Assembly (NCBI RefSeq): GCF_030209445.1 | Contig: NZ_JARVSD010000007.1 | Location: 62,001-126,000 of the forward strand | DNA from: Promicromonospora sp. MEB111 | Lineage (GTDB): Bacteria; Actinomycetota; Actinomycetes; Actinomycetales; Cellulomonadaceae | Direction of reading: 5' to 3' | Length of the DNA stretch: 64,000 nucleotides | Translations under genes and position numbers: made by a program | Shown here: in pieces, positions 30,579-34,660 of the stretch | Layout: every line of letters begins with the position of its first letter | Numbering within the stretch: position 1 is the first letter of the stretch | The notes under the pieces: generated by a model | What the model saw: the letters and a program-made list of their open reading frames with translations, nothing else | What the model was told of the DNA's origin: nothing | Databases searched by the model: none

Positions 30579-31322
30579 TCAGAGGCCGAGGTCCACCACC
30601 GCGGCCGCCACCCACGCGGCCAGCACCACCAGCGCGAGCACGACGTCCCCCCGGCCGATCGGGACGGGACGCCACACGGTACGGGAGCGCTCACCCAGGC
30701 CCCGGGTCTCCAGCGCCAGCGCGATGCGTTCGGCCGACCGGATCGAGGTGACCAGCAGCGCGAAGGCGGCCCGCCCGGCGTCGGACAGGCCGAATCGGGG
30801 ACGCCCGCGCCGCAGGGGCGCACGCACCGCCTGCGCCGCCCGGACCGTGGCCCATCGCGCGGGCATCGCCGCGAGCATGCGGTGGCCCGCCAGCACCGGG
30901 TAGGCGTACCGGGGGCTGAGCCGGGCGTGCTGCACCAGGCTCACCATCAGGTCGCGTGGCGGCGTGGAGGCCAGGAACCCGATCGTGAGCACGCCGATGA
31001 CGAGGCCGCGCAGCGCGAGGGCGACACCGACCGTCAGCCCCTCGGCGCTGACGGGCGATCCCGGCACGATCGGGGTGCCCGGCCGGCTGAGGCCGTTGAC
31101 GGCGACCAGCCCCACGCCGAACACGACGAACGGCACCTGGCCCAGCACCAGGGTGCGCGGCGGGACGCGGCCTGCGACCCCGACCGCGGCGACCGCGAGC
31201 GCGTAGAGACCCAGCAGCGGGCGCGGGTCGAGGAAGCCGAGGATGGCGAGCGAGGCGGCCAGCAGGATCGCCGCCTTGACCGTCGGGTTGCGACGGCCCA
31301 GGTAGGGGGTGGCGGCCGTCAT
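30579..31322 (-). CDS. ECF transporter transmembrane (T) component, YkoC-like
   Basis: The 247-residue membrane protein (CbiQ/EcfT family) has about five helices and the coupling-helix signature ending in ARG-type triplets (LALRGLVIG; ALETRGLGERSR). It couples the ATPase to the substrate-binding S component. Its ATG overlaps the ATPase stop by four bases. It is the last gene of the TPP-riboswitch operon. Confidence 0.9.
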   Translation of the reverse strand: MTAATPYLGRRNPTVKAAILLAASLAILGFLDPRPLLGLYALAVAAVGVAGRVPPRTLVLGQVPFVVFGVGLVAVNGLSRPGTPIVPGSPVSAEGLTVGVALALRGLVIGVLTIGFLASTPPRDLMVSLVQHARLSPRYAYPVLAGHRMLAAMPARWATVRAAQAVRAPLRRGRPRFGLSDAGRAAFALLVTSIRSAERIALALETRGLGERSRTVWRPVPIGRGDVVLALVVLAAWVAAAVVDLGL

Positions 31323-33076
31323 GCGGCCACGCCCAGCGCCAGAGCGGCGGCGTCCATGGCTCGCAGCACCTCGACCAGCTCCCGGCCGTCGCGCACCTCG
31401 TGCGCCAGCCGGCGGAGCAGGACGGGTGGGCGCAGTCCCGCGCGCGCGAGCAGTGCCTCGTCGCGGAGCAGGTCGAGCGGAGCCGTGTCGGCCAGCAGTG
31501 CGCCGTCCGCGAGCACGAGGACGCGGTCGGCGTAGCCCGCGACGGCGCGCAGGTCGTGGCTGGAGAACAGGACGCCGCGGCCGTCCGCCGCGGCGTCGCG
31601 CAGCGCCCGGAGCACGCCCACCGAGGCGTGCCGGTCCAGGCCGAAGCCGGGTTCGTCGGCGAGCAGGAACGGGTGCTCGTGCACGAGCATCGCGGCAAGG
31701 CTGAGGCGGCGCTTCTGCCCGCCGGAGAGCCGGTAGGGGTTGTGGTCGGCGAGCCGGGTGAGCCCGAAGCGCGCCAGGGCCCGCTCGACCCGGGGCGCGG
31801 CGTCGGGCGACAGGCCGTGCGCCACCTCCTGGCGCACGGTCGTGGCGGTGAGCTGGTGCTCCGGGTTCTGGAACACGAGCCCGGCCCGGGGGCCGTGCAC
31901 GCTGCCGGCGGCGGGCCGGTCGAGGCCCGCGAGGCAGGTCAGCAGCGTGGACTTGCCGCTGCCGTTGGCCCCGACCAGCGCCGTCGTGGTCCCGGGGTGG
32001 AGCTCCAGGTCGACTCCGCGCAGCACCTCGCGGCGCCGGGCCCGGGGACCGCGCACCACGGACAGGCCGCGGGCGCGCAGGGTCGGGCCGTCGTGCGGGG
32101 CAGGACGGGACGCGACGTCGGACGCAGGCAGGGCACCCGGCGCGACGGCGACCCCGCCGAGCTCCCGCAGCAGCCGGGCCGCCAGCGACGCGCCCGCGAG
32201 GTGCGCTTCTACCCAGCCATCGCGCCCGGAATCAGGCTGTTTCCGGGCGTGATCGCTGGGTAGAAGCGCACCTCGCGGGCGCCCCAGGAGCGCCTCCAGC
32301 TCCAGGTCGAGCGGGAGCCAGCAACCCTCGCCGACCAGGTCCCGGAGCATCGGCACGGTGAGGTCGCCGACGGCGACGTCGTGCCGGACGCGCCCGTCGG
32401 CGCCGAGCACGATCCAGCGCTCCGGAAGGGCCTCCGCCCCGGCGTCGCCCGCCAGCTCGTCGAGCCGGTGCTCCACGAGCACCCAGGCGGCGCCGGTCGT
32501 GCGCCGGACGACGTCGAGCGCGCGCCGCACGGCGTCGATCCCGGCGGCGTCGAGCATGGAGGTCGGCTCGTCGAGCAGCAGCAGGGTCGGAGAGGGCGCG
32601 ATCGCCGCGGCGAGCGCCACGCGCTGCAGCTCCCCGCCCGACAGCTCCGCCGTGGCCCGCCCGGCCAGGGCCACCGCCCCGGCCCGTTCGAGCGCCGTGC
32701 GCACGAGCGGGCCGATCGCGGCGGGGTCGACGGCGAGGTTCTCCAGCGGGAACGCGACCTCGTCGAGCACGTCGGGGAGGCAGACGCCGGACTCCGGATC
32801 CTGGGCCACGACGCCCACGACGTCGGCGAGCGCCGCGATCCCGGTGCCGGCCACGGACCTGCCGGCGACGCTCACCGTGCCGTCCACCTGCGCGTGGACG
32901 GCGTGCGGTACCGCGCCGTGCAGCATCCGCAGCAGGGTGGACTTGCCGGACCCCGACGGGCCGAGCACGAGCACGCTCTGCCCCGGACCGATGCGCAGGT
33001 CCACGGGCCCCACCCCGTCGCCGGTGCCGTACACCGCCTCCAGGCCGGTGGCCTCGACGACGGTGTCAGCGCTCAC
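31319..33076 (-). CDS. Fused ECF transporter ATPase (two ABC domains), YkoD-like
   Basis: The 585-residue protein contains two complete ABC ATPases. Domain 1 has Walker A GPSGSGKST (about 39-47), signature LSGGELQRVALA and Walker B LLLLDEPTS. Domain 2 has Walker A GANGSGKST, signature LSGGQKRRLSLA and Walker B LLADEPGFGLD. Residues about 266-295, between the domains, are encoded by a long palindrome (32192-32280) that keeps the frame open. It powers thiamine-precursor import with the neighbouring S and T components. Its start overlaps the S-component gene by 11 bases. Confidence 0.93.
   Translation of the reverse strand: MSADTVVEATGLEAVYGTGDGVGPVDLRIGPGQSVLVLGPSGSGKSTLLRMLHGAVPHAVHAQVDGTVSVAGRSVAGTGIAALADVVGVVAQDPESGVCLPDVLDEVAFPLENLAVDPAAIGPLVRTALERAGAVALAGRATAELSGGELQRVALAAAIAPSPTLLLLDEPTSMLDAAGIDAVRRALDVVRRTTGAAWVLVEHRLDELAGDAGAEALPERWIVLGADGRVRHDVAVGDLTVPMLRDLVGEGCWLPLDLELEALLGRPRGALLPSDHARKQPDSGRDGWVEAHLAGASLAARLLRELGGVAVAPGALPASDVASRPAPHDGPTLRARGLSVVRGPRARRREVLRGVDLELHPGTTTALVGANGSGKSTLLTCLAGLDRPAAGSVHGPRAGLVFQNPEHQLTATTVRQEVAHGLSPDAAPRVERALARFGLTRLADHNPYRLSGGQKRRLSLAAMLVHEHPFLLADEPGFGLDRHASVGVLRALRDAAADGRGVLFSSHDLRAVAGYADRVLVLADGALLADTAPLDLLRDEALLARAGLRPPVLLRRLAHEVRDGRELVEVLRAMDAAALALGVAA
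32192..32280. repeat. Long palindromic element inside the ATPase gene
   Basis: Arms 32192-32230 and 32242-32280 pair over 39 bp with two mismatches; the outer 26 bp are perfect. The loop is 11 bases (32231-32241). It lies wholly in the coding region for the interdomain linker and is translated without a stop. Codon-level need cannot explain such symmetry, so an inserted palindromic element, comparable in principle to Rickettsia palindromic elements, is proposed. No second copy was seen in this window. Confidence 0.85.
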
Positions 33077-33692
33077 GGCGCACCACGGGCCCGCGGAGCG
33101 CGGCGTCCGCCCGGCCGATGGCGAACTCGTCGAGCACGCCGGTGCCGTGCAGGCGGTCGACGATCACCTTGGCGAGCAGGCCGCCCAGCACGAGACCCGA
33201 GACGAGCTGCATCCCCAGGCGCAGCGCCAGGATGTCCTGCCCGTACCAGCCGAACCGGAACGCGGACCACACGAAGACCAGGCCCGCGCCCAGCAGGCCC
33301 GACGCCGCGTACAGACCCCACCCGAACCGGCGGTAGCGGGTCAGCGCGAACGGGAGCTCGCTGCCGGCGCCCTGGATCGCCGCGGCCACCAGCAGGAGCG
33401 GCCCGACCGGGGAACCCAGGAACACCACCTCGACGACGGACGCGATCACCTCGGCGATGATGCCCACGAACGGCTTGCGGATGATCGCGACCGCGATCGG
33501 CGCCACCAGGAGCCAGCCGCCCAGCAGCAGGTGCTGGGCCAGGTCGCCGGCCGGTCCCATCGCCACGGCGAGCCCGTTCCACGCCTGCACGAGCGCCCAG
33601 TACAGGAATCCGAACACCACGCCGAGCATCACCATGAGCACGATGTCGCGCAGCGGCAGCCGCGCCCGGCGGCGCGTCGTCGGCTCACTCAT
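33066..33692 (-). CDS. ECF transporter S component, YkoE family
   Basis: The 208-residue membrane protein has about five to six helices and the YkoE pattern (FGFLYWALVQAWNGLAVAMG, KPFVGIIAEVIASVVEVVFL, IQGAGSELPFALTRYRRFGW). YkoE proteins bind thiamine or its hydroxymethylpyrimidine precursor. Overlaps with both neighbours (8 bases upstream, 11 downstream) show a tightly coupled operon. The upstream TPP riboswitch supports the substrate assignment. Confidence 0.92.
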   Translation of the reverse strand: MSEPTTRRRARLPLRDIVLMVMLGVVFGFLYWALVQAWNGLAVAMGPAGDLAQHLLLGGWLLVAPIAVAIIRKPFVGIIAEVIASVVEVVFLGSPVGPLLLVAAAIQGAGSELPFALTRYRRFGWGLYAASGLLGAGLVFVWSAFRFGWYGQDILALRLGMQLVSGLVLGGLLAKVIVDRLHGTGVLDEFAIGRADAALRGPVVRRER

Positions 33693-34347
33693 CGTTGCCG
33701 GCCGCGCTATGGCTCGGGCTGTTCACCGAGAGGGTGAGGTGGCTGGTGACGTGCTGCACCGTGCGTCCCGCGAGGACCCAGCCGGCGAAGGCACTGGCGA
33801 GCACCCGTCCGGCGTCGCCCTCCAGGCGGGTGACGAAGTGCTGCGAGCCGCGGAACGTCCCGTTGTCCTTGGCCAGCTCGATCGCGGCGTAGATGTCGCG
33901 CATGTGGTCCGGTGTCACGTCCGCGCGGACGTCGTCGGCCAGCGGGTACAGCGCCCACTCGGCCGAGACGAACCGGCCGGTGTCGCGCCCCTGGGGCACC
34001 TCGGTGACCCGCGGGCCGGCCCCGCCGGGCAGCTCGCACACCACCTCGCCCGGGCAGCCCCGGGACAGGTGCACGGTGATCGCCGCGTGCCTGCCCGACG
34101 CCGCGATCCCGGCCGTCAGGTCGGTCACGTACCGCAGCAGGTCGGCCTCGGCGCCGCCCACGTAGGTGCTCACGTCGCCGGTCTCGACGACCAGCCCTGT
34201 GGTGTCGGCCTGCCGCAGCGCGCCCAGGATCACGTCGACGTAGTCGTCCGACATCACCGCGGCGGTGATCCGCGCGCCGACGCCGAAGCGCATCGGGTCG
34301 CCGCGCAGCTCTGCGGTCTCGTCGGTCACGGTGGCGTGGTCCGCCAT
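33685..34347 (-). CDS. YkoF-family thiamine/HMP-binding protein
   Basis: The 220-residue protein has two repeated ferredoxin-like halves, each starting with a GARITAAVMSDDYVDVILGAL- or ISAEWALYPLADDV-type strand-helix unit, as in YkoF. The known B. subtilis protein binds thiamine. The start at 34347 follows GGGAGG. It is the first gene after the TPP riboswitch in the order ykoF-E-D-C. Confidence 0.88.
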   Translation of the reverse strand: MADHATVTDETAELRGDPMRFGVGARITAAVMSDDYVDVILGALRQADTTGLVVETGDVSTYVGGAEADLLRYVTDLTAGIAASGRHAAITVHLSRGCPGEVVCELPGGAGPRVTEVPQGRDTGRFVSAEWALYPLADDVRADVTPDHMRDIYAAIELAKDNGTFRGSQHFVTRLEGDAGRVLASAFAGWVLAGRTVQHVTSHLTLSVNSPSHSAAGNDE

Positions 34348-34414
34348 GAGGTCCTCCCCTGTCCGTCGGATGTCCGTCGGGCACAGGAGGACGGGACCGG
34401 TACGGCCACGTCCT

Positions 34415-34505
34415 GAGGTCGCTCCCTGCGCCGGCATGATCCGGATCAGGTTCAACGGTCGGAGTTCGATTACTCCCTCTCAGCCCGGCATACCGGACTC
34501 CCGTG
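34415..34505 (-). promoter_or_regulatory. TPP riboswitch (thi-box)
   Basis: On the minus strand the conserved elements are present in order: a GGG(G)TGCC-like P1/P2 region, GGGCTGAGAGGGAG, then GAACCTGATCCGG.TCATGCCGGCG and AGGGAG closing the helix. CTGAGA and ACCTGAT are diagnostic. It ends about 70 bases before the ykoF-like ATG and should repress the transporter operon when thiamine pyrophosphate is abundant. Confidence 0.95.
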
Positions 34506-34660
34506 CTCGGCGCTCACCGTAACAGCACCCGTCACACCACCTGGACATTCCGGCTGAGCACCTGGACGCTTCGGCTGTTTTGCCCGTTTATCACCCCTGT
34601 TCGTGCTAGGTTCCCGGACGCCTGGTTTGAGCTCGCTCGATGACGAACGGAGCACCTGCC

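Follow-up and report, generated by a model that had tools for sequence, protein, structure and literature searches.

The ECF transporter operon and the palindrome in its ATPase gene

The window analyzed here is a 64-kb stretch (64,000 nt) of the Promicromonospora sp. MEB111 genome, in which a minus-strand operon for an ECF-type transporter contains a long palindrome inside its ATPase gene. The features of the locus are as follows.

30579..31322, minus strand: CbiQ-like transmembrane component, same operon as the ATPase (PF02361; TIGR02454 below cut-off)
31319..33076, minus strand: double-ABC ECF-type ATPase gene, 585 aa, with the palindrome in frame at residues ~265-296
32190..32282, no strand assigned: inverted repeat, made up of the 79-nt core and extra complementary bases on either side (arm search, RNA fold, recodings)
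32197..32275, no strand assigned: family-wide 79-nt core (matrix scan with aligned copies; covariance-model match G000:C22:94197-94275)
33066..33692, minus strand: PF09819 membrane component, same operon as the ATPase (Pfam)
33685..34347, minus strand: YkoF-related protein, encoded by the operon's first gene (PF07615; start taken from a purpose-built gene caller)
34406..34514, minus strand: TPP riboswitch upstream of the ECF operon (RF00059, 58.5 bits against a gathering score of 54.3; L009:5227-5335, minus)

Pfam recognizes two ABC_tran stretches in the ATPase; the cbiO NCBIfam model scores above its cut-off, and the ECF_ATPase_1 and ECF_ATPase_2 models score below theirs. We take the operon to be akin to the YkoEDC thiamine-type transporters. 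An AlphaFold2 model of the ATPase, calculated with 12 homologues, has a mean pLDDT of 84.1. Both ABC domains are well modelled, and pLDDT drops below 50 at residues 268-295, which belong to the palindrome-encoded insert, and at residues 310-325 and 345-347. The insert segment of the linker is predicted to be disordered.

A preliminary description of the locus had placed 39-nt arms at 32192-32230 and 32242-32280 around an 11-nt loop, with the outer 26 positions perfect and two mismatches overall. These figures are correct, and the symmetry in fact extends 2 nt further at the outer ends: the complete arms, 32190-32235 and 32237-32282, are 46 nt each, 93% complementary, and separated by 1 nt. The in-frame position was likewise given accurately. 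The palindrome contains no stop codon as read in the minus-strand ATPase ORF (31319..33076), of which it occupies residues ~265-296 (about 30 linker residues, 266-295, had been reported).

Symmetry of this kind might be a product of chance or a by-product of coding. The RNA strand of the palindrome folds with -101.3 kcal/mol (z -13.2), a value equaled by 0 of 200 dinucleotide shuffles. None of 1000 synonymous recodings, made with the peptide fixed and with the codon usage of the window, folds as well (observed -97.0; recodings: best -75.1, mean -57.7, sd 4.4); the preliminary description had stated that constraint on the protein does not give such symmetry. None of 2130 sampled 111-nt segments of the 64 kb folds as well either, and the palindrome is the sole match in a scan of the 64 kb for strong short-loop hairpins (loops of 3-12 nt; arm score, defined as length minus 3 per mismatch, of at least 16). 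Homologous palindromes, moreover, occur outside genes, and these copies refute an origin by chance or coding, which we regard as practically impossible.

A dispersed hairpin family in Promicromonospora

Searched with the palindrome at the DNA level, the own genome (G000) returned 45 matches at about 24 places. Twenty-five copies were read there, and 22 of them were aligned into a covariance model of 79 positions and 25 pairs, which finds matches in 13 of the 13 Promicromonospora genomes searched. With both strands counted, there are at least 109 matches in G006, at least 72 in G010 (P. sukumoe), at least 55 in the own genome, while in G005 the number falls to 4; these are lower bounds, with 150 candidates scored per genome, and one copy usually gives a match on each strand. 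Nearly all aligned copies are 79-80 nt long.

The family appears confined to the genus. An exact pattern of the element found 27 stretches in a named genome collection, 25 of them in Promicromonospora and two as single arms in metagenome bins (L066 and L085); the latter do not score as elements and were not accepted as members. The same pattern had no match in viral contigs. Weak model matches were present in 15 of 187 genomes of the same bacterial family outside the genus. One locus from each of four such genomes was considered and rejected, all four being other hairpins without the CTACCCAG motif; at least two of these, L193 and L194, lie beside or between convergent gene ends. An Rfam scan of four loci found no family at gathering score over the element, and microRNA models that overlapped it, all below their gathering scores, were set aside as generic hairpin matches. 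In the literature searched, with subscription journals mostly outside its coverage, we found no description of a 79-nt Promicromonospora family, and publications on palindromes in Promicromonospora include, by title and opening of the abstract, none on such repeats.

To describe the genomic position of the element, we read 104 copies from nine species (25 from the own genome, 38 from G006, 28 from G010, and 13 from G001, G002, G003, G004, G011, and G012), relying throughout on gene calls from the purpose-built caller, which is based on codon usage. Two weak copies missed by the scanner, L027 and L030, both intergenic, are outside this set. Ninety-nine copies are intergenic, 46 of them between convergent, 48 between tandem, and 5 between divergent genes; one lies at a locus edge and is unclassed, and the remaining four, which are in coding sequence, all belong to the ATPase gene. 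Among own-genome spacers, the 22 with an element are 10 convergent, 11 tandem, and 1 divergent, versus 6, 32, and 25 for the remaining 63 that are 80 bp or longer. Element spacers are hence enriched for the convergent arrangement (Fisher p 6e-4) and depleted for the divergent one (Fisher p 2e-3). Copies are partly orthologous across species and therefore not independent, a complication from which this own-genome comparison is free. The nearest stop codon is at a median distance of 26.5 nt (94 copies) and within 70 nt in 75 of the 94. Among tandem copies, 45 of 48 are closer to the gene that ends than to the gene that starts. We conclude that the palindrome in the ATPase gene is one member of a dispersed, Promicromonospora-specific family of hairpins that habitually lie at gene ends.

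In one own-genome locus (L017, 3092-4178), about 1.1 kb including a gene that adjoins an element is missing from the P. sukumoe orthologue, L151.

The copy within the ATPase gene

The palindromic segment of the ATPase is found in frame at the same position in P. sukumoe (G010, L048). In G006 (L051), a 50-codon stretch of the ATPase is tandemly doubled and each unit contains a palindrome, while in G009 the assembly enters Ns ahead of the segment. At a threshold of E 1e-60, none of the nine remaining congeners yields a match to the ATPase. Beyond the genus, a match was obtained in 33 of 137 genomes, and the insert peptide is missing from all 12 orthologues taken from these 33 and aligned. The preliminary description had proposed that a small palindromic element was inserted in a linker that tolerates extra residues, a view to be given up if orthologues in distant genera all carried the same residues or if related genomes held no further copy. 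Neither was encountered: the searches of the genome and its relatives gave the ~24 places and 13 positive genomes described above, and the aligned orthologues gave the 12 sequences devoid of the peptide. The existence of a repeated family and the predicted disorder of the segment, where additional residues are plausibly tolerated, support this part of the proposal. As for the event itself, outgroups without the segment make it very probable that the element was inserted into the ATPase gene. Fusion of two genes around an intergenic hairpin is disfavoured: the double-domain form, with no such segment, already occurs among the orthologues of other genera.

One hundred intergenic copies, read on both strands, give 200 readings; frame 0 is open in 154 of them, frame 1 in 41, and frame 2 in 29, and it is in frame 0 that the ATPase reads the element. 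Three species or more, among them those of G000, G006, and G010 (P. sukumoe), would descend from an ancestor in which a copy came to lie in frame between the ABC domains; read through in the element's usually stop-free frame, that copy would have added ~27 residues that the protein tolerated.

Substitution rates were compared between the insert and the flanking domains. For the G000-G010 pair, pN is 0.089 and pS 0.105 in the insert, and the corresponding values (pN/pS) are 0.058/0.240 and 0.055/0.271 in the two ABC domains; the other species pairs give an insert pN of 0.107-0.161 and pS of 0.053-0.207. Compared with the domains, these values indicate that the residues of the insert are little constrained. 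Its silent sites may be slow, as judged from small counts (2 changes at 19 sites for G000-G010).

A rival reading gives the coding copy a function within the gene, as an mRNA hairpin between the two ABC domains that slows the ribosome or the polymerase and thereby tunes output of the second half of the ATPase. Three species have the insert in common, silent changes in it are few between G000 and G010 (pS of 0.105 versus 0.240 and 0.271 in the domains), and the stem in the window species equals those of intergenic copies in strength: of 34 paired positions, 32.5 are paired in the window copy and 31 in P. sukumoe, the intergenic mean being 29.65. Against such a function, both G006 copies have weaker stems, with 25 and 26.5 paired positions and predicted folds of 150-nt stretches at -71.8 and -75.3 kcal/mol versus -122.1 and -104.8 kcal/mol in G000 and P. 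sukumoe. Moreover, six non-independent comparisons of coding copies show 29 one-sided breaks and 6 compensated changes, the silent-site counts are small, and pS reaches 0.207 between G010 and the second G006 copy (G006b). We consider a role within the gene improbable. Since the stem is weakened only in G006, simple tolerance does not by itself account for the strong stem of the window copy; even so, we infer that the coding copy has survived by passive tolerance. The overall reading that we prefer, to which we assign a probability of about 0.6, is that of a family of gene-end hairpins, one copy of which is carried in frame in a tolerant ATPase linker.

The preliminary description likened the palindrome to Rickettsia palindromic elements (RPEs), which are also dispersed palindromic repeats found in frame, without a stop, in coding genes. 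According to the available part of one report (PMC10969869), RPEs are ~150 bp long and form ten families, and nearly half of the 44 elements in R. conorii are within genes. The element described here, in contrast, is 79 nt long, belongs to an unrelated genus, has a single coding site, and is intergenic in 99 of 104 copies. RPEs are in frame in many unrelated genes; here, the 4 of 104 copies in coding sequence all occupy one orthologous gene. The comparison therefore holds for the in-frame palindrome and fails for the habit of entering genes. Translated small repeats have been reported, in the portions available of the respective papers, from Rickettsia (PMC10969869) and from enterobacteria (PMC2759123). 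The ATPase provides a case outside Rickettsia in which a dispersed palindromic repeat has turned into (predicted) protein, and it can be compared with intergenic relatives, with outgroups that lack the segment, and across the three species that have it.

Hairpins at gene ends and the spread of the family

Covariation was counted in 22 pairs of orthologous intergenic copies, most of them taken from spacers that contain a single copy in each species (L028/L145, L021/L112, and L011/L118 were left out). These pairs comprise 624 paired positions, of which 534 do not differ between the two copies, 37 have two-sided changes that retain Watson-Crick pairing, 17 have one-sided changes to G-U, 32 have one-sided breaks, and 4 have other two-sided changes. 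If the arms changed independently, 6.9 two-sided changes would be expected, 2.3 of them compensated, as against the 37 observed. The compensation may be due to selection for the hairpin, to templated correction within the palindrome, or to replacement from another copy. We also considered that the element might sit within older stems, the window copy being paired beyond the 79-nt core, and dropped the idea, as flanks pair no better than re-dealt ones (100 intergenic copies: mean longest run 3.97 versus 4.12 re-dealt, reached in 277 of 300 deals).

Five orthologous spacer sites (A-E), some without the element in one or another species, were aligned. At site A, two other types of hairpin are seen among three relatives. 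At site B, there is another hairpin in G003 and degenerate relatives in G006, and the own genome apparently retains the right end only. At site C, the own genome is without the element and G003 carries a second palindromic family. Site D has apparently the left end in the own genome and no hairpin in three relatives, and at site E another hairpin is present in G010, G006, and G003. In 4 of the 5 spacers, at least one relative without the element has a different hairpin; the scan of the 64-kb window showed no further strong short-loop hairpin. That a hairpin of some kind often holds the same place favours use of the shape at gene ends.

The copies share with intrinsic terminators a stable hairpin close behind stop codons. 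As for a U-tract, TTTT occurs in 0 of 200 outward 10-nt tails, and the T fraction there is 0.161 versus a background of 0.137, so the element falls outside the textbook definition of an intrinsic terminator. Two further points speak against a gene-end role: 5 of the 104 copies lie between divergent genes, and the site D relatives have no hairpin. On balance, the intergenic element probably has a terminator-like or RNA-end role. Situated behind stop codons and often between convergent genes, the hairpin would act in both directions as a 3'-end element, which would halt or slow RNA polymerase or shield the RNA end from decay.

Covariation of the arms could alternatively result from templated arm correction or from conversion among copies, with no selection for the hairpin. 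Some base shifts are common to the copies of a genome, as conversion would produce: position 25 is C in 67% of copies in G000, and T in 93% and 96% of those in G006 and G010. Such genome-wide shifts hint at conversion or at a trans factor. On the other hand, orthologous copies (mean identity 0.838 over 20 pairs, a comparison that included the three pairs left out above) are on average more alike than copies from other places between genomes (0.784, 0.798, and 0.835), so vertical descent is still visible; within genomes, mean identities are 0.780, 0.832, and 0.852. The replacement of the element by other hairpins at the same places also points to use for shape, and we consider correction or conversion an unlikely source of the covariation. 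Less likely still is a more elaborate scheme, in which the family shifts in sequence across the genome together with a trans-acting termination or RNA-end factor and the coding copy has been recruited as a translated, structure-bearing regulator situated between the halves of the ECF ATPase.

The same low degree of credence as for conversion is given to a non-autonomous mobile element of the MITE or REPIN kind, served by a transposase in trans, whose position at gene ends would stem from target choice or purging with no host function. Such an element would be dispersed in tens of copies of nearly constant length within one genus, as is the case here. Copies also form clusters at 90-280 bp spacing, chiefly in G006, where part of the clustering is local duplication (four copies in L124; three each in L114, L126, L130, and L155), and the arms contain CTAC/GTAG, GTAG being tied to REPs in the available text of PMC10969869. 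However, a search for the Y1 transposase family (PF01797) found the RAYT transposase in none of the 13 Promicromonospora genomes, while the control search succeeded in 5 of 14 named genomes. Arm matches in the own genome number 45, of which 44 are within palindromes and the last, located elsewhere, has 3 mismatches, which leaves no insertion sequence with these ends there. The five spacers compared contain no clean empty site or target duplication, and many copies occupy orthologous places in several species.

Repeated stem-loop families as such are already well known, as stated in the parts available of PMC2267715, PMC3116915, and PMC1852404. Repeated stem-loop (SLS) and REP/REPIN families are described there (PMC2267715; PMC3116915) as short, repeated palindromes that are often intergenic, and the Promicromonospora element resembles them in being repetitive, palindromic, and extragenic (99 of 104 copies). 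It differs in that the genus has no Y1 transposase and one copy is translated, and, from REP/REPINs, in that each copy forms a single long stem instead of a pair of REPs, each with its own hairpin. Paired DNA uptake sequences of Neisseria and Pasteurellaceae similarly place a repeated sequence as a hairpin behind genes. In the excerpt available of PMC1852404, uptake sequences are 9-11 nt long and generally number at least 1,000 per genome, and intrinsic terminators have a T-rich tail; here, the element is 79 nt long, occurs in tens of copies with 44 of 45 own-genome arms paired, and has no T tail. ERIC/RU, BOX, and SPRITE, small repeats with open frames that are sometimes intragenic or terminator-like (PMC10969869 and PMC2759123, as far as their text was available), are comparable by description, not by sequence. 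What Promicromonospora offers is a set of gene-end hairpins, found across the genus, that covary, have no U-tract, and are swapped for unrelated hairpins at the same spot. With these natural replicates, transcript ending without U-tracts in high-GC actinobacteria becomes a testable question.

Other palindromic repeats were observed near copies of the element. A second one, of ~45 nt (GTGTTGCTC ... GAGCAACACAC), lies between element copies in the spacers of L124, L116, L131, and L025 and in L190, and stands in the element's place at one site. A third (GGTTGCATTGAGACCGGTCC ...) is found close to element copies in L141 (~2698-2780), L116, and L129. In P. sukumoe, a repeated GCTGGTCGAGCTTGTCGAGACC hairpin (L171) is present in a spacer where the window genome carries the element.
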